This document shows, piece after piece, positions 3,231-29,212 of a stretch of DNA of 32,335 bases. The DNA comes from a virus: positions 1 through 32,335 of IMG/VR virus record IMGVR_UViG_3300030109_002410. One strand, given 5' to 3'. The translations under genes and the position numbers were made by a program. A model generated the notes under the pieces. It ran no database searches, was not told where the DNA came from, and saw only the letters and a program-made list of their open reading frames with translations. Position 1 is the stretch's first letter. Every line of letters begins with the position of its first letter.

Positions 3231-3452
3231 TTGGCAAAAACAAAAGACAAAAAGCCAGAATTAACATTAGATGAAAAAGGATATTTTTTTGAAGATATGG
3301 ATGAAAAACAAAAAGGTATTTATCTTCATCTAAAAAATGTTAATGACAAAATAAATTCTAATGGTTTTCTTGGAGAACAATTAGAAGTTACTAAAGGTGC
3401 TTTAATAACAATGTTTAGAGATACATTAAGTGAAGAAAAAGAAGAAAAGTAA
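3231..3452 (+). CDS. small acidic helical protein, unknown function
   Basis: A 73-residue protein with a TTG start, chosen because an AGGAG lies six bases upstream and the reading frame MAKTKDKKPELTLDEKGYFF is coherent from there. It is charged, lacks a membrane segment and is probably helical (EKQKGIYLHLKNVNDKINS). Its last bases overlap the likely start of the lipoprotein gene that follows. Small acidic proteins of this sort are common next to phage fibre and lysis genes; no function is assigned. Confidence 0.7.
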   Translation: MAKTKDKKPELTLDEKGYFFEDMDEKQKGIYLHLKNVNDKINSNGFLGEQLEVTKGALITMFRDTLSEEKEEK

Positions 3453-3585
3453 TCAATCAACATCTTATAATATCCCTATAAAGTTTGTCTTTGTGGGGAT
3501 GTTATTAACTAGTTGTGAAGGTTGGTCTGTTATGGGTTATGCCTTAGATGAGTCACAAGAAGATAACACAGAGATAAATGAATGA
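3430..3585 (+). CDS. small lipoprotein, Rz1-like outer-membrane spanin candidate
   Basis: A 51-residue frame with a GTG start, giving a Lys-rich N-terminus (MKKKKKSNQ), a hydrophobic stretch (IPIKFVFVGMLLTSC) and a lipobox LTSC with Cys at about 29. The mature peptide (CEGWSVMGYALDE...) would be only about 23 residues. A short lipoprotein directly before, and overlapping, a gene for a membrane-anchored coiled coil is the arrangement expected of an o-spanin/i-spanin pair (Rz1/Rz in lambda), which fuses the inner and outer membranes at lysis. The start is the weak point: no strong ribosome site precedes GTG 3430, and it overlaps the previous gene by 23 bases. The stop TGA overlaps both downstream starts at 3578 and 3582. 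Confidence 0.6.
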   Translation: MKKKKKSNQSTSYNIPIKFVFVGMLLTSCEGWSVMGYALDESQEDNTEINE

Positions 3586-3898
3586 AGACTTTAAAACTGC
3601 TAAGTCTTATCGTACTGGCATCATTGATGACAATGCTTATATCACTATTAACTGGAAGCTATTGGTACAATTTGGGGTATTGGTCATTAGTTTGTCTTAC
3701 GCTTGGTATGACCTACAGGGAAGAATTAAAGATTTGGAAGAAGAGGTGTTGGATGCTCATGCTGAAATTAGGTTGTTGGTTGACAAACACCAGTTGGAAG
3801 AAAGTATACAATTAGAGGAAATGGAAACTAAGTTAAAATTCTATGAAAAAGAATTTAACATTAACCCACTTTCGTGGAGAAAAAGGAAAAAGAAATAA
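3578..3898 (+). CDS. membrane-anchored coiled-coil protein, Rz-like inner-membrane spanin candidate
   Basis: 106 residues: a short polar N-terminus, one membrane segment (about 27-45, LLVQFGVLVISLSYAWY), then a long charged coiled coil (LQGRIKDLEEEVLDAHAEIRLL...) and a basic tail WRKRKKK. This is the size and topology of an i-spanin (N-in, periplasmic coiled coil). It begins inside the end of the lipoprotein gene and ends TAATG into the next gene, so the cassette is translationally coupled. A second frame (ATG 3582 to 3815) shares the DNA; the 3578 frame is preferred because it joins perfectly to the next gene at 3898 and has the more protein-like composition. Confidence 0.7.
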   Translation: MNEDFKTAKSYRTGIIDDNAYITINWKLLVQFGVLVISLSYAWYDLQGRIKDLEEEVLDAHAEIRLLVDKHQLEESIQLEEMETKLKFYEKEFNINPLSWRKRKKK

Positions 3899-4215
3899 TG
3901 GATTTTATAGCGGTTTATGGCGAAGCGGGAATGATTGGAGTCGTAGGTGCTATGTTCGTATATTTAGTAGTTTCTCTTTCTAATAAATCAGCTAAACAAC
4001 AAGAAACTTTAGAAAGTCTAAAAGTAGAAAACAAAGGTCAAAGTGAAACATTAGAGAATATGGAAGGTATGATTATTAAATTAATAAACCGTTGGAATGT
4101 TTCTGATGATAAACTTGATAGAAAATTTGATGCCCTAACTAAAGACGTTAATTCGGTTGATAACCAAATTTCAGAAGTAAAAGGTTCTTTAAGTAGAATA
4201 AATGGAAGGCACTAA
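3898..4215 (+). CDS. holin-like membrane protein with cytoplasmic coiled coil
   Basis: 105 residues from the ATG that overlaps the previous stop (TAATG); an in-frame ATG at 3874 exists but lies inside the upstream gene. One N-terminal membrane segment (about 10-29, AGMIGVVGAMFVYLVVSL) is followed by polar coiled coil (KQQETLESLKVENKGQSETLEN) and a Lys/Arg-containing end. The layout resembles the BhlA/UviB class of small holin-like proteins. It could equally be a structural or spanin-associated membrane protein; assignment rests on topology and on its place among other lysis-type genes. Confidence 0.6.
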   Translation: MDFIAVYGEAGMIGVVGAMFVYLVVSLSNKSAKQQETLESLKVENKGQSETLENMEGMIIKLINRWNVSDDKLDRKFDALTKDVNSVDNQISEVKGSLSRINGRH

Positions 4216-4425: not shown

Positions 4426-4602
4426 ATGTTAGGAAAAGTAGTAGCACAGTATTTATTAGACGATGAAGTTAAAGCTGATTTAATTGCATCTGTAAATAAA
4501 TCTGTTAATGTACCAATGATTAATGAAAAAACAGAAGCTAAGATATTAGAAGCTATCTGGGAATTATTTGAAATGGCAATTAAAAAAAAATTGGGAGTTT
4601 AG
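4426..4602 (+). CDS. small helical protein of the lysis/tail cassette, unknown function
   Basis: 58 residues, MLGKVVAQYLLDDEVKADLIA onward, ending in a basic tail (EMAIKKKLGV). It is predicted all-helical and amphipathic, without a clear membrane span. Strong AGGAG site eight bases ahead; the stop TAG abuts the next ATG. No family recognised. Confidence 0.65.
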   Translation: MLGKVVAQYLLDDEVKADLIASVNKSVNVPMINEKTEAKILEAIWELFEMAIKKKLGV

Positions 4603-4797
4603 ATGACACATTCAATAGTAACCTTAATCATAGCGTCTTCTTTGCATGGACAACCGCTAGAAGAAAATAAATATCAAGAGCAGTATGCAATGATGGAAGA
4701 GGTAAAAAAGAAAAAGAAGAAAGGTAAAAAGATTGGTGGAGCTAAAGGTAAAAAATCTAAAAAAGGTTTTTTCTCTAAAATATTTGGTTCTAAATAG
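4603..4797 (+). CDS. small secreted or membrane-tethered lysine-rich protein
   Basis: 64 residues: a hydrophobic N-terminus (MTHSIVTLIIASSLHG) that resembles a signal peptide, an acidic linker (EENKYQEQYAMMEE), then a highly basic tail (KKKKKKGKKIGGAKGKKSKK) ending FFSKIFGSK. A GGAG lies five bases before the ATG. A cationic, possibly membrane-active peptide beside holin-like genes suggests a lysis or membrane role, but a DNA-binding virion peptide is also possible. Confidence 0.6.
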   Translation: MTHSIVTLIIASSLHGQPLEENKYQEQYAMMEEVKKKKKKGKKIGGAKGKKSKKGFFSKIFGSK

Positions 4798-22576: not shown

Positions 22577-23200
22577 TTATTTCTCCATTTTAGATATGGT
22601 GTCACTTATATACGTAGCAATTTCTTCAACATTTAAACTTACGTGCTTTAATTGGTCTATCAAATCGGATTTATCTAAATCTCTATTTACACCTTCTGTA
22701 TAAGCATATATTTGAGTGACTTTTGATTTTATGTTTTTTAATATTTTATTATAATCACGAAATCTATGTCCATCTTCTATTTCAATTGCTTTTTCAATTT
22801 CATCATCAGAAAGACTAATAGGTCTTTTAATTTTCCAAACACCTGTTTCAATTGGAGTAGACGTAGCACTACTAATTGAAGAACCATCTCCAATAACGTA
22901 AAGCATAGCGTCTTCGGAAAGATGCTCACTAATTACATCTGCCCAAGAAACCATTTTACGAATAAATAAACCACTACGAACACCTTCAACCATATCCAAT
23001 GTTTCCAAGATGATGTCATCAACTTTATACAATTCGCCATAAAAAGAATGTCCTTTACTTTCACAAACCATAGGATAACCAAACCCTGTGTCGTACATTC
23101 TATATCCATCTACTTCTACATCTTCTATATACTTAGCACCTTCCATATATCCGTGAAGCCTTCCACGTTTTTTAAGTGTGCCATACACGATTACATACAT
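22577..23200 (-). CDS. gamma-glutamylcyclotransferase-like (AIG2 fold) enzyme with C-terminal extension
   Basis: 207 residues, GGAGG before ATG. Residues 1-80 are the AIG2/GGCT fold: VYGTLKKRGRLHGYM (substrate loop YGTL), GELYKVDDIILETLDMVEG with the catalytic-type Glu at about 72. Family enzymes release gamma-glutamyl groups as 5-oxoproline or cyclise glutamyl-amines. Residues about 105-207 are a Ser/Thr-rich linker and helical domain (NVEEIATYISDTI) not found in minimal members. Its presence with an amidoligase and class-II amidotransferase (27280-29212) matches a linkage known for amidoligase systems. Overlaps the upstream gene by ten bases. Confidence 0.75.
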   Translation of the reverse strand: MYVIVYGTLKKRGRLHGYMEGAKYIEDVEVDGYRMYDTGFGYPMVCESKGHSFYGELYKVDDIILETLDMVEGVRSGLFIRKMVSWADVISEHLSEDAMLYVIGDGSSISSATSTPIETGVWKIKRPISLSDDEIEKAIEIEDGHRFRDYNKILKNIKSKVTQIYAYTEGVNRDLDKSDLIDQLKHVSLNVEEIATYISDTISKMEK

Positions 23201-23703
23201 ACTTCCTCCATTTTCTTTTTAAATATCTTAGGTATTTTTCTACCTTTCCATTCTGTTTTATTGTTTAACTTTTCTGCAATATAATACTTTCTATAAGATT
23301 GTACTGCATCATACTTACCATCTACTTTTGTTTTATACTCTACAGGCATTGCTAATGCAAAATTACTTTTCTGTTTTACTTTATCAATATTCAGTTTTAC
23401 TGCATTATAATAACACCACTTGATAACATCTAAAGACTTGTGAGTTTTGCCGTACCTGTATGTATACTCGTTTGATAAGGCAAAGCCGTGTTGTATTAAC
23501 CACATAAAATTAGCCATAGATTTTCTTGTCCAAACACTACAAGGGTGATTATAATGTGTACGCCTGTATGGTACATCAAACTTATCTCTGTCAAATACAG
23601 AACACAACATTTGTGCTGATTCTAATATCATTTTAACTACGTGCTTATTGTGTTGTAGTTGTGCTGATTTTACAGGAGAATTATCTAATACAAATATGTT
23701 CAT
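23191..23703 (-). CDS. conserved phage protein (NIFVLD ... HVVKMILE family)
   Basis: 170 residues of a family seen in many phages: MNIFVLDNSPVKSAQLQHNK, HVVKMILESAQMLCSVF, YRRTHYNHPCSVWTRKSMAN, then EYTYRYGKTHKSLD and FALAMPVEYK. Conserved His, Cys and Trp residues suggest an enzyme or nucleic-acid binder; I do not know its function. Joined to the upstream gene by ATGA and overlapping the cyclotransferase gene by ten bases. Confidence 0.65.
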   Translation of the reverse strand: MNIFVLDNSPVKSAQLQHNKHVVKMILESAQMLCSVFDRDKFDVPYRRTHYNHPCSVWTRKSMANFMWLIQHGFALSNEYTYRYGKTHKSLDVIKWCYYNAVKLNIDKVKQKSNFALAMPVEYKTKVDGKYDAVQSYRKYYIAEKLNNKTEWKGRKIPKIFKKKMEEVCM

Positions 23704-24005
23704 TGTTTATTCTCTTTTGTTTGACGTTCCCATTTTTTAATCCATTTTTTAATTTGCTTTATTTCATCACGACATTCTTGTTTTTGTTCTGTCGTTCCTT
23801 CTTTGAAATCTTCATTTCTTACATGACCATCTTCATAATAAGTTGCTAGAACATACTTGGCATCACTAATTAAAAGTTTAGGCATTTCTTTTTTATAGTC
23901 GTAATAATCATAGCCATTTGATTCTATTACGCACGTACAAGCATATTCTAGTTCTCCAATTTCCCACATTTCATCTCGCATTTTATAATACGTTGCTTTG
24001 TTCAT
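23700..24005 (-). CDS. small protein of unknown function, first gene behind promoter A
   Basis: 101 residues from ATG 24005 (GGAG five bases ahead; a GTG six bases upstream is less likely). MNKATYYKMRDEMWEIGELE, Cys pair (ACTCVIE), acidic Tyr-rich middle (SNGYDYYDYKKE) and basic helical end (IKKWIKKWERQ). It is the first gene after the 24035-24063 promoter. Confidence 0.65.
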   Translation of the reverse strand: MNKATYYKMRDEMWEIGELEYACTCVIESNGYDYYDYKKEMPKLLISDAKYVLATYYEDGHVRNEDFKEGTTEQKQECRDEIKQIKKWIKKWERQTKENKQ

Positions 24006-24034
24006 ACTCACTCCATTTACACTTTGTTATATAT

Positions 24035-24063
24035 GTTATACGTGCAATTACTTAAAAAGTTCC
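24035..24063 (-). promoter_or_regulatory. early promoter A, GGAACT-N17-TATAAC
   Basis: Minus-strand -35 GGAACT (24063-24058), 17-base spacer, -10 TATAAC (24040-24035), followed by ATATATAACAA. Promoter B at 26539-26567 has the same boxes and spacer and a matching stretch after the -10. The spacer here contains TTGCACGTA, close to the iteron core TGCACGTA. It drives the gene starting at 24005. Confidence 0.55.
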
Positions 24064-24070
24064 AAACTAA

Positions 24071-24634
24071 TTATCCCCATTGGTTTGCCATTGCATCTGC
24101 TATCCCTTGAAATGTTCTACTTCTTGCAATAGAATTTCGGGGGGTTTTATACCAACCCTTTGTATACCTATGTCCGTTTTTTGTTGTAATGTACGTTATC
24201 TCAACTACTTTAGTTGGTTCTAGTTTAGGTAAACCCTTTAACCATAAACACGTTTTTTTAGAATGGTCGTGTCCGTGATGATAGGGTTGTATTATTTGGT
24301 CATACTTAGGCAATCCAGCTTGTTTACTTGGAACAGGGTTTTCAATACATATCTTAGGTATATTCGCATTAAGTAAACCCATAAATAAACTTGTGTCTAT
24401 TTCTTTCTTTTCTATCTTGTTTAACCTTGCCCTGTTCCTACATATATACGTACATACAGGGTGACCTATCATTAAATCCCACCCTTTATCTAAGTGGTTC
24501 ATTACATCATCTTGAATGTGGTATTTACTTGGTATCTCTGTTTCCATTAAATCACAACTCCAAGCCTCGTGACCTTTCTTATTAAAAGCCTCACGAATTA
24601 TACCACTCATCTCACACGCTATCAGTACTTTCAT
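24071..24634 (-). CDS. C5-cytosine methyltransferase-like protein of phage type
   Basis: 187 residues. MKVLIACEMSGIIREAFNKK is a Rossmann SAM-binding start; D28 in WSCDLM; GHPVCTYI (57-64) stands where C5-methyltransferases have PPC with the catalytic Cys (C61); CIENPVPSK (96-104) is the ENV-type motif; RSRTFQGIADAMANQWG closes the fold. Small phage proteins of this kind are often annotated DNA methylases. Whether it modifies DNA is uncertain, because the target-recognition region is tiny. Might protect phage DNA from host restriction. Overlaps the upstream gene by 23 bases. Confidence 0.7.
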   Translation of the reverse strand: MKVLIACEMSGIIREAFNKKGHEAWSCDLMETEIPSKYHIQDDVMNHLDKGWDLMIGHPVCTYICRNRARLNKIEKKEIDTSLFMGLLNANIPKICIENPVPSKQAGLPKYDQIIQPYHHGHDHSKKTCLWLKGLPKLEPTKVVEITYITTKNGHRYTKGWYKTPRNSIARSRTFQGIADAMANQWG

Positions 24635-24827
24635 CTTTTTTATACTCCTTCATATATACATTTCTTAGAGCATTTAACAATAAGACCTTCTCATTGTTAT
24701 TCATTTTGCTCCACGCTTTCGCACCTACTACTTTTAATTGCTCACGTAACACTCTACCAATACCCATAAGTGCTTGAGCCATTCTATAACTATAATCTTG
24801 CCTATCTTTATAATCTTGTCTGTCCAT
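24612..24827 (-). CDS. small helical protein of unknown function
   Basis: 71 residues: MDRQDYKDRQDYSYRMAQAL then REQLKVVGAKAWSKMNNNEK and VLLLNALRNVYMKEYKK. All-helical and basic; the N-terminus has a short repeat (DRQDY x2, also visible in DNA). AGAGGA lies five bases ahead of ATG, within the preceding gene's end. No family recognised. Confidence 0.65.
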   Translation of the reverse strand: MDRQDYKDRQDYSYRMAQALMGIGRVLREQLKVVGAKAWSKMNNNEKVLLLNALRNVYMKEYKKDESTDSV

Positions 24828-24828
24828 C

Positions 24829-25230
24829 TTATTCCTCTAGGGGGGATTTAAGAAAGTCCTCGTAGAAATTAATACCCTTCACTTGATTATTTTTAGGTTG
24901 ATTTACTGCAATGGACATAACATATTTATCATTAGGTCTGTTATTTTTAAACCATAGTACGTAGGTTTTATTTCCAACCTTATGAGGTGTTGCAATCCAA
25001 TCTGCTTTGCATTTATTTAAGTGAATTTGAATAGATGCTTGAGTTTTACTTACGTTCATTGAAGTGTGATATTTGACATTAATTGTAATTTTTTTACCCT
25101 TATTAATTACCAACAGGTCTATGGTCTTGTCATCTACGACAGGCTCATAAACCTGTATATCCTTATAGTTTTCTAATAGGTTTTGTATAACAATTAATTG
25201 CCCTATATACCCCTTACGAGTAGTATTCAT
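24829..25230 (-). CDS. PD-(D/E)XK-like nuclease-fold protein with altered active site
   Basis: 133 residues. TRKGYIGQLIVIQNLLENY resembles the N-terminal helix of archaeal Hjc/restriction-type nucleases; DDKTIDLLVINKGK provides D38; ITINVKYHT gives N51-x-K53 where Glu-x-Lys is usual. Later KADWIATPHK and TYVLWFK fit the core sheet. It is either a nuclease with Asn in the site or a non-catalytic DNA-binding relative. It overlaps the upstream zinc-finger gene by 17 bases. Confidence 0.55.
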   Translation of the reverse strand: MNTTRKGYIGQLIVIQNLLENYKDIQVYEPVVDDKTIDLLVINKGKKITINVKYHTSMNVSKTQASIQIHLNKCKADWIATPHKVGNKTYVLWFKNNRPNDKYVMSIAVNQPKNNQVKGINFYEDFLKSPLEE

Positions 25231-25396
25231 CTTCTATTGAGAATTCTACGTGTTCTCTGTAAGCTTGTTCCTCTTCTTGCCTACGTTCTTCTGCAAATAA
25301 TTCCTCGTCTTCATCTACACAACTATAACACAGATTTTGGTCTAAATCAAATTCTGTTTCATCATAATCACTTTCACAGGTTAAACAAGTCCACAT
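25214..25396 (-). CDS. small acidic zinc-finger protein
   Basis: 60 residues, strong GGAGG six bases before ATG. MWTCLTCESDYDETEFDLDQ then NLCYSCVDEDEELFAEE: two CxxC pairs form a small zinc ribbon, followed by a very acidic, Glu-rich tail. Such acidic ribbons in phages often act as protein adaptors or DNA-mimic inhibitors of host proteins; the target here is unknown. Confidence 0.65.
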   Translation of the reverse strand: MWTCLTCESDYDETEFDLDQNLCYSCVDEDEELFAEERRQEEEQAYREHVEFSIEDEYYS

Positions 25397-25416
25397 AATG
25401 TACCTCCGTATTTTAT

Positions 25417-25617
25417 TTAGTATTTAATTAATTTTAAAATTCTTGCAACTTCGCTATATCTACTCATTAGATTTAAATCATAAACTCGATTTATTAAAAT
25501 ATCATTAATAGAATCTTTTGTATAAATAGAAATCTTATTTAGATAATATTTTTCAATTTCATTTTGAGATGGATTACTTTCTAAAAATTTAATCAATTTA
25601 TGTATTTCTCTGCTCAT
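25417..25617 (-). CDS. small helical protein of unknown function
   Basis: 66 residues, MSREIHKLIKFLESNPSQNE ... RYSEVARILKLIKY, all helix. Coupled to the ParB-like gene by ATGA. No motif recognised; HTH-like spacing in the second half (INRVYDLNLMSRYSEVARI) is possible but not convincing. Confidence 0.6.
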   Translation of the reverse strand: MSREIHKLIKFLESNPSQNEIEKYYLNKISIYTKDSINDILINRVYDLNLMSRYSEVARILKLIKY

Positions 25618-26066
25618 TTTTTTAAACTTTTAGACCTTCGCACATAAGCATATATTTGTTTAAGACCTAATTCATTTGCAATTACTCCACGATGATGTCC
25701 ATCAATTTGTGTTATTTTACCATTCTCATAATCAAATATTACTGGCTCTATTGCTTGAATACCACCTTTGTCCATTCTGCTTTTAATATCGTTCAATATC
25801 CTTGTGTGGTAGCCATCATAATCATCCCATTCAAAGTCATCTCTTGTCATATCCTTAAATCTACTCTTTGTATAAACATTAACTACTGGATTTTCATCAA
25901 TGTTTAATAATTTCAAGTCATAGATACCATCTTTTGCCACACAAACAGATGAAGTCTCAATCATATCTTTACCAAGAACTGTAGATTCTATTCTTAATCC
26001 ATCTACCCATTGGCTTTCCTTATCTAAAGTATAACCTTCTGCTTTATTATATGTCATATTTTTCAT
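25614..26066 (-). CDS. ParB/sulfiredoxin-fold protein
   Basis: 150 residues. The C-terminal third, AIEPVIFDYENGKITQIDGH then HRGVIANELGLKQIYAYVRR, has the Srx/ParB signature (I-DGHHR-x-AN-x-LG ... AYV; residues about 121-145). The N-terminal half is beta-rich and unlike ParB. In phages this fold occurs as small nucleases, CTP-dependent switches or DNA-modification helpers, so partition is not implied. It begins on a TAATG overlap with the 45-residue gene and ends ATGA into the next. Confidence 0.75.
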   Translation of the reverse strand: MKNMTYNKAEGYTLDKESQWVDGLRIESTVLGKDMIETSSVCVAKDGIYDLKLLNIDENPVVNVYTKSRFKDMTRDDFEWDDYDGYHTRILNDIKSRMDKGGIQAIEPVIFDYENGKITQIDGHHRGVIANELGLKQIYAYVRRSKSLKK

Positions 26067-26203
26067 TATTTACCTACCTGTTTTATTTTCCATTTTTTAG
26101 ACAAATCTAAATGGTTAATTATCCAATGCCTTATTTCACTTTTATGTTTAAAGTCAATAGTATAATTTTCTTTATCCGACTTACTTTTTATTAAATATTT
26201 CAT
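26066..26203 (-). CDS. 45-residue basic protein
   Basis: Protein MKYLIKSKSDKENYTIDFKH then KSEIRHWIINHLDLSKKWKI and KQVGK. GGGGG five bases ahead of the ATG acts as ribosome site, and its stop overlaps the ParB-like start (TAATG). A short beta hairpin then helix and basic tail; the W-I-x-x-H-L pattern is typical of small phage proteins. Function unknown. Confidence 0.7.
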   Translation of the reverse strand: MKYLIKSKSDKENYTIDFKHKSEIRHWIINHLDLSKKWKIKQVGK

Positions 26204-26206
26204 TAC

Positions 26207-26497
26207 TTACCCCCTTATAATTTTATTTAATTCATTAGTGGTTTTCATATGAAAAGAATTTTTAATAAATAAATTAGGTCTTAACTGTGTTTGTTGTTTG
26301 CTAGTTGAAACGCTATATTTATCTTTATTTTCGTACCATGTTTGGGTACTTGCTTTGTATACATACATAGGAAAATGTCTTCCATATGAATAAACTATAT
26401 ACTTGCCTTCATTCCACTCTGCAAACGTGTTTGAACCTCTAAATTCGTCTTTGTCTGTGGTGTATTCAGAACCGTTTTTATTTGCTATTTTTACCAT
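26207..26497 (-). CDS. conserved phage protein of unknown function, first gene of the second early operon
   Basis: 96 residues, GGAG seven bases before ATG, downstream of promoter B. Core FAEWNEGKYIVYSYGRHFPM then YVYKASTQTWYENKDKYSVS and SKQQTQLRP is a beta-rich module that recurs in phage early regions (Tyr-Ser-Tyr-Gly-x-His-Phe-Pro, Trp-Tyr-x-Asn). I recognise the pattern but not a function. It lies right next to the iteron region, so a replication or regulatory role is possible. Confidence 0.65.
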   Translation of the reverse strand: MVKIANKNGSEYTTDKDEFRGSNTFAEWNEGKYIVYSYGRHFPMYVYKASTQTWYENKDKYSVSTSKQQTQLRPNLFIKNSFHMKTTNELNKIIRG

Positions 26498-26538
26498 GTT
26501 ATCACTCCGTTTTTTATTAATTAAATACTTGTTAATAT

Positions 26539-26567
26539 GTTATACAATAGTACCCCCAAAATGTTCC
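26539..26567 (-). promoter_or_regulatory. early promoter B, GGAACA-N17-TATAAC
   Basis: Minus-strand -35 GGAACA (26567-26562), 17-base spacer, -10 TATAAC (26544-26539), followed by ATATTAACAAGTA, nearly the same as behind promoter A. It drives the operon starting at 26497. A further GGAACT at 26725-26720 has a poorer -10 (TTAACT) at the same spacing. Confidence 0.55.
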
Positions 26568-26757
26568 AAAATAGTAAAACTTTTTTTTATTAGTGGGTAA
26601 ATTAGTGGGGATAGTAAACTCATAATATTATAATAGTATTGTAATAGTACTATAGTAGTTTTAAAAGTTTAGTATAGTATTGTAGTATCATAGTATAGTT
26701 AACGCACGGAATTAAAGAAAGTTCCATACTATTTTAAATAAATTGTAAAAAAGTACC

Positions 26758-26920
26758 TACGTGCATACTATTTTTAATAAAATTAATTACTTACGTGCAT
26801 AAATAAATACTTACGTGCATATTTTATACCTACGTGCATAAATTTTTACTACTTACTTGCGTTTACCTACGTGCATACTAATATTTTTAATACTTGCCTA
26901 CCTACTTACCTACGTGCATA
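26758..26920. repeat. six iteron-like TACGTGCATA direct repeats
   Basis: Exact copies at 26758, 26792, 26812, 26831, 26868 and 26911, all in the same direction, with start-to-start spacing 34, 20, 19, 37 and 43. Several are preceded by CC or ACT (CCTACGTGCATA). The core resembles TACGTGCA in promoter A (24039-24046). Likely binding sites for a replication or regulatory protein. Confidence 0.75.
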
Positions 26921-26940
26921 CTTTAAAAAATAAAAAAAAT

Positions 26941-26956
26941 TTATCATTTTTGATAA
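26941..26956 (-). terminator. AT hairpin with U-tract, possible terminator of a leftward small RNA
   Basis: TTATCA-TTTT-TGATAA is a perfect six-pair stem; on the minus strand it is followed by ATTTTTTTTA. It is weak (one G-C pair), but lies just downstream, in the minus direction, of the GC-richer island at 26985-27110. Confidence 0.35.
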
Positions 26957-26984
26957 AAGAGTTATAGGAATGTAGGCATTGGTT

Positions 26985-27110
26985 ATGAAGCTGGTGAAGG
27001 CTTAACAATTTTTACGGCTGCATACAGTTTTAATGCTGCATAGCCAGATAGGCTTTTCCTTCCAGTCACCTACCCCCCTCAGAGTGCCCTGTGAGAGAGC
27101 TACCTACGTA
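26985..27110 (-). ncRNA. candidate structured small RNA or origin element
   Basis: A stretch clearly richer in G+C than its surroundings and without a frame. It holds two direct GCTGCATA copies (27017, 27035), an outer pairing GGT-GAAGG (26993-27000) with CCTTC...ACC (27058-27070), and AGCC (27042-27045), which can pair with GGCT on either side (27016 or 27051). CTCAGAGTGCCCTGTGAGAG follows. Strand is a guess from the hairpin/U-tract at 26941 and the repeat motifs upstream. It could equally be a double-stranded origin element. Confidence 0.4.
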
Positions 27111-27135
27111 TTTTGCTATATTTTAAGATAATTTT

Positions 27136-27225
27136 ACTATACATAATCTAGTTTTCTGTGTTATGTATAGTTCATTTTAATTATACATAATATCTAAATT
27201 GGTGTTATGTATAGTTATTTTTAGG
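27136..27225. repeat. two 45-bp tandem repeats, each with a palindrome ACTATACATAA/TTATGTATAGT
   Basis: Unit 1: ACTATACATAA (27136-27146) and TTATGTATAGT (27161-27171), a perfect 11-base inverted repeat with a 14-base loop. Unit 2: the same with one change at 27180-27190 and 27206-27216. GTGTTATGTATAGTT is identical in both units. On the minus strand unit 2 contains AGATATTATGTATA, the motif found at 8661 and 30058. Possible phage promoter or repressor sites. Confidence 0.6.
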
Positions 27226-27230
27226 CAAAA

Positions 27231-27266
27231 AAAATAGGGAAACCCAATTAAGAGCCTCCCTATTTT
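27231..27266 (-). terminator. strong terminator of the amidoligase operon
   Basis: AAAATAGGGA (27231-27240) and TCCCTATTTT (27257-27266) form a perfect ten-pair stem with a 16-base loop; on the minus strand it runs into eight T. It begins 13 bases after the amidotransferase stop. An A/T flank on the other side could also stop rightward transcription. Confidence 0.8.
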
Positions 27267-27279
27267 ATTACACTACTTA

Positions 27280-28026
27280 CTAAATACTGTAATGCTCGTT
27301 ATCACAAGTTGAGCACATACCGTTATTTTGCTCATATAATGTTGATAAACTAGCTTTACATTGCTTACAACTATATCTAATAACTCCACCTAGATATTTT
27401 TTCTTCTTCTTTTTCTTCGGCTTTGTGGGTGAGTGGAGACCGTGACCTCCCCAATAATAACTCCCATAGTTATAATGTATCGTACATGATTCAAAGGTTT
27501 CGTTGGAATACCATATTCCATTATCCCAAAGCCCTTTGTGCTCATTACACATTGTATAATTGCCATCATTATCTAAGAAAGCTAGTTTACTATTACTGCT
27601 GATAGCTTCCTCAATTAATGCTATTACGCCTTGATTATTCAAAAAATCCTTTGGTAATAGTTTTAAGACCGTATCATTAAACATTGATGTATCAGACCTA
27701 GTCTTATCATTATCAACAAAGTGAATTACTCCATTATGAGCAAAGCCAAGATTATTATTGACTTGGAAAGGGTGACAGTTTGATTTATCGGTCAAACCGT
27801 GTGTTGTGATTCTGAAATGCAAGATTGCGGTTGGATTGTCATTCTTAACCATAGCTTGACAATATGAACCCCAAAATTTATCAAAATCAAAAAACCCCTT
27901 TCTAATGGTTAATGAACCCTTACTAGCGAACATAAAACCCGCCCCATCTGGATTATTTTCAAAGCAATTTTTAGCGGTTTCCTTAGATATGAAAACGCCC
28001 TTTGGTTTCGTTGCAATTATACACAT
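27280..28026 (-). CDS. class-II glutamine amidotransferase (Ntn hydrolase) with C-terminal zinc ribbon
   Basis: 248 residues. Starts MCII, placing the nucleophile Cys at position 2, exposed after Met removal. NPDGAGF (25-31), HFRITTHG (70-77, Arg-THG motif that binds glutamine), CHPF (84-87), AHNG (96-99, oxyanion Asn-Gly) and SDTSMF (111-116) match the GATase II family (GlmS/PurF/AsnB type). A run of seven Lys (204-210) links to a zinc ribbon, C220xxC223 ... C238xxC241. It would hydrolyse glutamine (or a gamma-glutamyl amide) and pass on ammonia. GGAGG eight bases upstream lies in the end of the amidoligase gene, giving coupling. No synthase domain is attached, so the partner is likely the amidoligase. 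Confidence 0.85.
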   Translation of the reverse strand: MCIIATKPKGVFISKETAKNCFENNPDGAGFMFASKGSLTIRKGFFDFDKFWGSYCQAMVKNDNPTAILHFRITTHGLTDKSNCHPFQVNNNLGFAHNGVIHFVDNDKTRSDTSMFNDTVLKLLPKDFLNNQGVIALIEEAISSNSKLAFLDNDGNYTMCNEHKGLWDNGIWYSNETFESCTIHYNYGSYYWGGHGLHSPTKPKKKKKKKYLGGVIRYSCKQCKASLSTLYEQNNGMCSTCDNEHYSI

Positions 28027-28027
28027 A

Positions 28028-29212
28028 TTATAACACCTCCAAGTTATCTGAGTTATATTCTAAATTGACTAAGTTGGTCATATGTTTTTTAGTCATCATG
28101 TTTTGAGATTTAGTGAACATTGGATAACCTTTCTTATGAAGAAAAAAACATAAGTTCAAATATGAACTTTGGTGTTTCTTCAAAAATCTAAGATAACTAA
28201 GTCTCCCAATTTCGGTTGCGTCTTTCAAGCTTGTAACATCTCCCCAATGAAGAACACTTCTTACAAAATCCATATTTTTCAAAAATGAATTATAATTTAG
28301 TGTACCTCTAAAGAGCCTAAACTCTATTGTGTTTCTAGGGTGTAGATTAATTGCACTTGACCTATCAAGATACTCTCTTATCTCTCTGTAATTACTGTTA
28401 GCCATAAATGAAAATGGCTTTTTGAAATTATCAAGGAAATACGAACCTAGTTTAGGCTTCGCCCATTCATTAAGAGCACTTTCTCGTCTTTGGGAAATAT
28501 CAAGAATTAATTTGTAATAATCCTCATTAAAAACCAAAGATAACACTTTATAGAGCGTAGTTGGTTTAATGCTATTCCTTGAAACGTGAACGTGCATACC
28601 TGAGTCACTAGCTTTATGAGAGCGAAAGGAATCCTTCCTAAGCATTTTAAATAAGGTCTTAAATACTCTGTGACCGTATTTATTAAAATACTTCCATGTG
28701 AAAGGGTGTGATACAATTTCATTATCACAAGTGCTATCAGATTTAACATACAATAACTCCTCGTTATTTGTTAAACCTTTGCCTAATAAACCTATCATTG
28801 AAGCGAGTTTATTACCGTATAAATGGTTGTAACCGTCGGTTTCAATCTCAACGCCAAAGTGTCTATAACCCTTATCTCTCTCCGAAATAATACATTGACC
28901 CTTATGAACTCGATGAAATAAAGAATTAGGTTTCTCACTATATCCTAGAATACATCTAGTATTAGTGATACAATTCTTACAAACATTATCATCATTCATA
29001 CCCATTCTTTTTCTACCACAAGAAACACATCTTTCTAAATCATCAAAACAATCATGGCAGATAGGTTTCCTAGTTGAATAGTTCATGTTTAGCCCTGTAT
29101 CGGGGCACCTTTCCTCACACACCACACAAATACTTTGTGGAGGTTGTGGGTTAATGAACGTTTCAAAGTCACCTTGACTTAGTCTATCTTCTATTGATTT
29201 TAATATACTCAT
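28028..29212 (-). CDS. amidoligase (COOH-NH2 ligase, glutamine-synthetase-like fold) with N-terminal zinc ribbons
   Basis: 394 residues. N-terminus: four CxxC pairs (C29/C32, C52/C55, C62/C65, C78/C81), i.e. tandem zinc ribbons. Then the amidoligase core: HFGVEIET (118-125, metal and ATP site), KSDST...NEIVSHP (157-170), SGMHVHVSR (204-212) and NTIEFRLFRGTLN (304-316). This family forms amide bonds between a carboxyl and an amine using ATP; the named chemistry is family knowledge, and its substrate is unknown. The operon with a class-II amidotransferase is a known pairing. It starts at ATG 29212 behind a promoter at 29255-29282. Confidence 0.85.
   Translation of the reverse strand: MSILKSIEDRLSQGDFETFINPQPPQSICVVCEERCPDTGLNMNYSTRKPICHDCFDDLERCVSCGRKRMGMNDDNVCKNCITNTRCILGYSEKPNSLFHRVHKGQCIISERDKGYRHFGVEIETDGYNHLYGNKLASMIGLLGKGLTNNEELLYVKSDSTCDNEIVSHPFTWKYFNKYGHRVFKTLFKMLRKDSFRSHKASDSGMHVHVSRNSIKPTTLYKVLSLVFNEDYYKLILDISQRRESALNEWAKPKLGSYFLDNFKKPFSFMANSNYREIREYLDRSSAINLHPRNTIEFRLFRGTLNYNSFLKNMDFVRSVLHWGDVTSLKDATEIGRLSYLRFLKKHQSSYLNLCFFLHKKGYPMFTKSQNMMTKKHMTNLVNLEYNSDNLEVL

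Follow-up and report, generated by a model that had tools for sequence, protein, structure and literature searches.

At the locus a small lipoprotein gene (LP), a membrane coiled-coil gene (CC) with a second frame nested inside it (EMB) and two further membrane protein genes (HOL and P48) follow one another on the plus strand of the window, by which we mean the whole 32,335-base stretch of DNA that was analysed. The window is a virus record of 33% G+C with a tail fibre/spike gene upstream of the cassette and a terminase at its far end. Its source is best explained as an uncultured marine tailed phage, with LP and CC as the outer-membrane part of its lysis cassette. Terminase comparison gave a loose placement only (best rows at ~27% identity, marine podoviruses among them), and three MAG contigs bear the labels of three different groups and indicate no host. 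In tblastn searches against cultured phages no homologue was found for the window CC, three other CC types or HOL, and the single match of LP (E 0.9) was disregarded. A search of solved structures returned coiled-coil or chance matches only. Elsewhere in the window, at 22577-29212 on the minus strand, lie gamma-glutamyl cyclotransferase-like, DNA methyltransferase and glutamine amidotransferase-like genes.

LP (3430..3585, plus strand) starts with GTG and encodes a 51-aa, o-spanin-like prolipoprotein with an LTSC lipobox. The signal region MKKKKKSNQSTSYNIPIKFVFVGMLLTS leads directly to the predicted lipid Cys at codon 29 (3514-3516), and the mature part has 23 aa (CEGWSVMGYALDESQEDNTEINE). Lipidation is predicted for the family as a whole, in which this Cys is conserved and is followed by one or two residues, GW and a short hydrophobic or glycine-rich stretch, typically SVMGY or SVGGY. 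The window LP is a short form. Most relatives have a long form (~77 aa), of which 32 aligned sequences share C, GW, E, DS, H, Y, C, H and E without exception. At the other extreme the mature LP of L007, L050 and L165 has shrunk to 13-15 residues, with GW.(V/I).G as the core. In the alignment of the long form (A4, first row L021 4316-4546) the invariant H53, C66 and H69 could form a metal site or a disulfide. The structure model of LP is of low confidence (pLDDT 64). Among six short LPs, the more diverged pairs have pS of 0.40-0.65 against pN of 0.11-0.22, with both values lower in near pairs, and this pattern indicates that LP is evolving as a protein under purifying selection. The LP start shows a peculiarity of its own. 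In L021 and other long-form loci a small conserved peptide (approximately M.K.IKKL.NGDF.VVSTSYDIPV) overlaps it in a different frame; in L021 the ORF of this peptide ends just inside LP, with its stop ~172 bases before the CC match. Across the first 8 codons of 63 distinct LPs, 3 stops occur in the overlapping frame, where 25 would be expected. In the window an STSYNIP motif lies inside the n-region of LP itself, as if the overlapping peptide and LP had fused.

CC (3578..3898, plus strand) has an ATG start and encodes an i-spanin-like membrane protein of 106 aa with 80 relatives. An N-terminal part of ~26 aa is followed by a TM helix, a long helix and the conserved C-terminus KFYEKEFNINPLSWRKRKKK; common to 50 aligned relatives (alignment A2) are KFYEKEFNINPLSW and a basic tail. 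AlphaFold2 predicts a short hairpin at residues 12-23, a single helix at 26-93 and a short C-terminal helix, with a mean pLDDT of 79 overall and above 90 for residues 31-80. Flanking charges suggest an N-in, C-out topology for CC and the opposite one for HOL. Searched against spanin families, the window CC had no match; 24 of 50 CC relatives matched the Rz-like family phrog_739 weakly, as HOL does as well. The conserved N-terminal segment and the strongly basic, conserved C-terminus are, to our knowledge, not typical of i-spanins.

The two genes overlap by 8 bases in a node, ATGAATGA (3578..3585, plus strand), that holds the CC start at 3578, a second ATG at 3582 and the LP stop TGA at 3583-3585. 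The ORFs of LP and CC and the second ATG lie where the preliminary description had placed them, and the LP stop indeed overlaps both ATGs. The second of these, however, opens a conserved frame of its own and is no alternative CC start. This frame, EMB (3582..3815, plus strand), spans 77 codons in the +1 frame of CC, and its predicted product has a hydrophobic N-terminal and a basic C-terminal half. Inspection by eye of the window EMB and of the aligned EMBs showed no lipobox, and Pfam gave no match of note among 34 members. At least 60 codons of the frame are open in 52 of 98 distinct CC genes, 40 with LP upstream and 12 without; in 39 of the 52 the context is (A/G)TGA(A/G)TG, with CC starting 4 bases before EMB. 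Close double starts of a related, not identical, motif (AUGUG/GUGUG) can yield both frames in Escherichia coli, according to the part of that report available to us (PMC9841429). The other 46 genes have no EMB or one of fewer than 60 codons; 23 of them have LP yet no long EMB, and a group of 13 shows a single interruption of the frame, around codon 22 or 35. CC genes with a downstream LP2, a lipoprotein described below, have no EMB. Ten loci (L021, L030, L033, L044, L046, L048, L093, L097, L101 and L102) have in common a stop around codon 35 that is followed two codons later by an ATG, with the remaining frame stop-free, which may mean two peptides or readthrough. Readthrough from LP across its TGA into EMB to give a unimolecular spanin was considered and set aside: it is possible in long-form loci, where the two share a frame, but not in the window.

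Downstream, HOL (3898..4215, plus strand) encodes a holin-like protein of 105 aa with an N-terminal TM segment and then a coiled coil, acidic before the TM and basic after it, which by the positive-inside rule predicts N-out/C-in. It has weak holin and Rz-like PHROG matches, and 77 of the 98 distinct CC genes have a homologue of it no more than 1.2 kb away. P48 (4279..4425, plus strand), a holin/antiholin-like membrane protein of 48 aa, follows HOL in many relatives. Both genes, which the preliminary description had taken for holin-like, are genuine, and the cassette they form is conserved. They are followed on the same strand by a small conserved protein of 58 aa (4426..4602; near-identical gene at 6785-6958 of L015) and by a cationic peptide of 64 aa (4603..4797) with a signal-like N-terminus and the sequence KKKKKKGKK...KKGFFSKIFGSK, an amphipathic, disruptin-like candidate whose pattern recurs in 25 loci or records, one of which (L072) is false. 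In many relatives an M15 endolysin gene or the likewise conserved MUR gene lies downstream of P48. The M15 protein of L015 matches the endolysin family phrog_465 (E 5e-37) and exceeds the Pfam cut-off for Peptidase_M15_4; an enzyme role for MUR is a guess, since its sole match is the unknown family phrog_3108. Neither profile matched in the window, whose larger genes likewise gave no endolysin in PHROG scans; these scans took in only part of the small ORFs, and the contig may be incomplete. The compact lysis cassette that had been proposed thus has its lysis context in the relatives, but is partial in the window, in which no endolysin was found.

Retrieval of loci by CC and by LP led to the same pairing. 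A CC-only scan of viral contigs gave 80 loci, and an LP profile, built from ten seeds (nine of these loci plus the window, so that the model later found its own seed loci), placed LP homologues directly 5' of CC in 36 of the 80. Together with the purifying selection this establishes the small lipoprotein gene as real. An LP-only search gave 235 relatives, and among the best 80 CC is directly next in 68 and HOL in the other 12, two of which hold a further LP-CC-HOL set. With 14 contigs dropped, CC follows LP in 54 of 66, the fairer count because those 14 had already come via CC. The loci in all these and the following counts are not independent. In all LP-CC loci the lipoprotein comes first. 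Both this order and the close association of LP with a gene for a membrane coiled-coil protein held up, and at the level of sequence comparison LP and CC are demonstrably conserved genes. In the FINW clade LP is absent and an unrelated, longer lipoprotein, LP2, lies downstream of CC; it occurs at most 300 bases downstream of 12 distinct CC genes. In L062-L080, LP2 follows CC in most loci. That CC associates with either of two unrelated lipoproteins, LP upstream or LP2 downstream, is the pattern expected of a partner gene. Beside 23 of the 98 distinct CC genes, T4-like contigs included, there is neither LP nor LP2, and 12 of the 23 are EMB-open; the threshold of this count scores L050 as LP-less, although it has a short LP. 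A whole-record search of 19 contigs without LP at CC found LP in one only, away from CC.

The EMB frame might be an artefact of unusual codon use in CC that leaves one frame stop-free by chance, an explanation we consider highly improbable. It draws on the fact that CC largely determines what EMB can encode: compared with simulations that keep CC and the stop avoidance, EMB is only slightly above in hydropathy (mean z 0.73) and charge (mean z 1.23), and its membrane character may for this reason be partly forced by the frame. The distribution of stops speaks against an artefact. The window and 11 close relatives all (12/12) lack a stop in the 77 codons from the second ATG. In the window CC (row L001, identical CC) the +1 frame has 2 stops, neither of them before the end of EMB, against ~10 in simulations that draw synonymous codons from the window's codon usage (P<0.0025); the same usage gave the expected stops at all loci. 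Among the 15 distinct CC genes of the window type, the number of stops over codons 0-70 is 0, where 119 would be expected; there are 15 at the EMB end (17.4 expected) and 21 past it (28 expected), so avoidance is limited to codons 0 to ~75-80 and ends at the stop. These 15 genes were defined by CC identity (group A; the grouping took in 95 of the 98 distinct genes) and are the only clean test, because groups B, C and F were formed after the open frames had been seen. In the window group, moreover, avoidance depends on the next base, with ATA and GTA avoided only before A/G: in CC the ATA share is 5% before A/G and 69% before C/T, against 38% and 46% in structural genes, and the GTA share is 0% against 58%. 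Avoidance is absent from CC of other clades, where FINW, T4-like and some other groups, controls picked in part post hoc, have stops at the expected rate. It is absent as well from LP, HOL, P48, LP2, M15 and MUR, which have no comparable stop-free frame bar the short stretch at the LP start. Over ten non-independent pairs of the window group, four-fold sites had changed at 0.12-0.47 in the overlap and at 0.39-0.67 in HOL, with the overlap lower in nearly all; outside the window group the result was mixed. The pattern of stops and codon contexts shows that the EMB frame has been selected to stay open. That EMB is a lysis membrane protein is a guess, and on holin-like action, a guess as well, we are evenly divided.

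For the function of LP and CC, two other readings were weighed. Both could be lysis genes and yet form no spanin pair, with LP a small lysis lipoprotein that acts by itself and CC a holin-type or scaffold protein. The very short mature LPs of L007, L050 and L165 would suit this, as would the 12 of the best 80 LP loci (of 235) with HOL instead of CC next to LP and the occurrence of CC without LP; the adjacency of LP and CC and the replacement of LP by LP2 beside CC across a whole clade argue against it, and we regard it as possible, but doubtful. Alternatively, the cationic secreted peptide at 4603-4797 could open the outer membrane in the manner of disruptins, which the accessible part of the source describes as amphipathic antimicrobial phage peptides (PMC12819732), while LP, CC and EMB do something else. 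Its signal-like N-terminus and KKGFFSKIFGSK tail are conserved near CC, even in the LP-less L049, and like disruptins of the phage phiKT type it is small, secreted-looking, cationic and amphipathic, a likeness of composition only. Most LP-CC loci, however, have no match to its pattern, and such a peptide can coexist with a spanin, so that this reading appears unlikely. We favour, with some confidence, the interpretation of LP and CC as a spanin-like pair whose order, lipoprotein first, is opposite to those of lambda and of the T4 construct, with EMB as a third membrane protein expressed from the shared start node. The spanin-like pair of the preliminary description thus stands as regards the lipoprotein gene, its pairing, its order and its lysis context, whereas spanin function itself is an interpretation.

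Several properties of known spanins bear on this interpretation. The predicted periplasmic length of LP plus CC is ~83 residues (~60 + 23), within the 62-300 given for two-component spanins in the consulted part of a spanin survey (PMC6139136). The window pair has no periplasmic cysteine, as in 21 of 526 known pairs of the same survey portion (PMC6139136), and all 32 long-form LPs (A4) have an invariant one. Like lambda Rz/Rz1, the locus combines a putative inner-membrane helical coiled-coil protein with a small lipoprotein in a lysis cassette, and the gene of the former carries a second gene in its +1 frame. Here, however, the nested gene is EMB, which shares the frame position of an embedded Rz1-type o-spanin but lacks its lipobox, while LP lies upstream with its short overlap; no sequence similarity to Rz/Rz1 was seen. 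The earlier contrast with lambda was therefore correct in that the lipoprotein is not nested, but it missed the nested EMB. With T4 PseT.3/PseT.2 and other separated spanins the locus shares adjoining, non-nested i- and o-type genes, and the CC-LP2 loci share the gene order as well, but the window has the lipoprotein first and no homology was seen. LP has an N-terminal lipobox like the unimolecular spanin T1 gp11, but no C-terminal TM, and its frame in the window is not that of EMB. In the embedded and overlapped classes the o-spanin is nested in or runs beyond the i-spanin, and for the separated class the available part of the survey states no order (PMC6139136); LP, which precedes CC wherever the two are paired, fits neither of the former two. 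Embedded, overlapping, separated and unimolecular classes also appear in the accessible part of a 2025 census of viral lytic proteins (PMC12596118). In open-licence full text we found neither a lipoprotein-first spanin nor a non-lipoprotein gene nested in an i-spanin. If the function holds, a gene order opposite to that of the embedded and overlapped classes, together with the nested non-lipoprotein gene, would constitute a new two-component spanin arrangement.

From this we infer a membrane topology, a spanin function, a dual initiation and a role for EMB as follows. LP would reside in the outer membrane as the o-spanin, and CC in the inner membrane as the i-spanin, with its N-terminus in the cytoplasm and its helix in the periplasm. 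After the endolysin has cut the wall, LP and CC would join across the periplasm and bring about fusion of the inner and outer membranes, as described for Rz/Rz1 in the consulted parts of two sources (PMC5295617; PMC6139136). Ribosomes finishing LP would restart at one of two starts 4 bases apart, ATGA(A/G)TG, and make either CC or EMB. The latter would be a small hydrophobic, basic membrane protein and probably a third lysis component, as a holin or holin regulator. Whether the node indeed couples the amounts of three lysis proteins, with EMB an undescribed component overprinted on the i-spanin gene and kept in many marine phages, seems to us evenly balanced.

Overlapping lysis genes are routinely overlooked; in the part of the spanin survey available, the o-spanin was unannotated in 196 of 528 pairs (PMC6139136). 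The present cassette is widespread in uncultured marine phages, and its hidden LP and nested gene match no family searched. An i-spanin-like gene that is accompanied by an upstream or by an unrelated downstream lipoprotein, and that has a non-lipoprotein gene nested in it, offers a natural test of the evolution of spanins and of overprinting, and LP, CC and EMB provide a compact three-gene set for tests of outer-membrane lysis.
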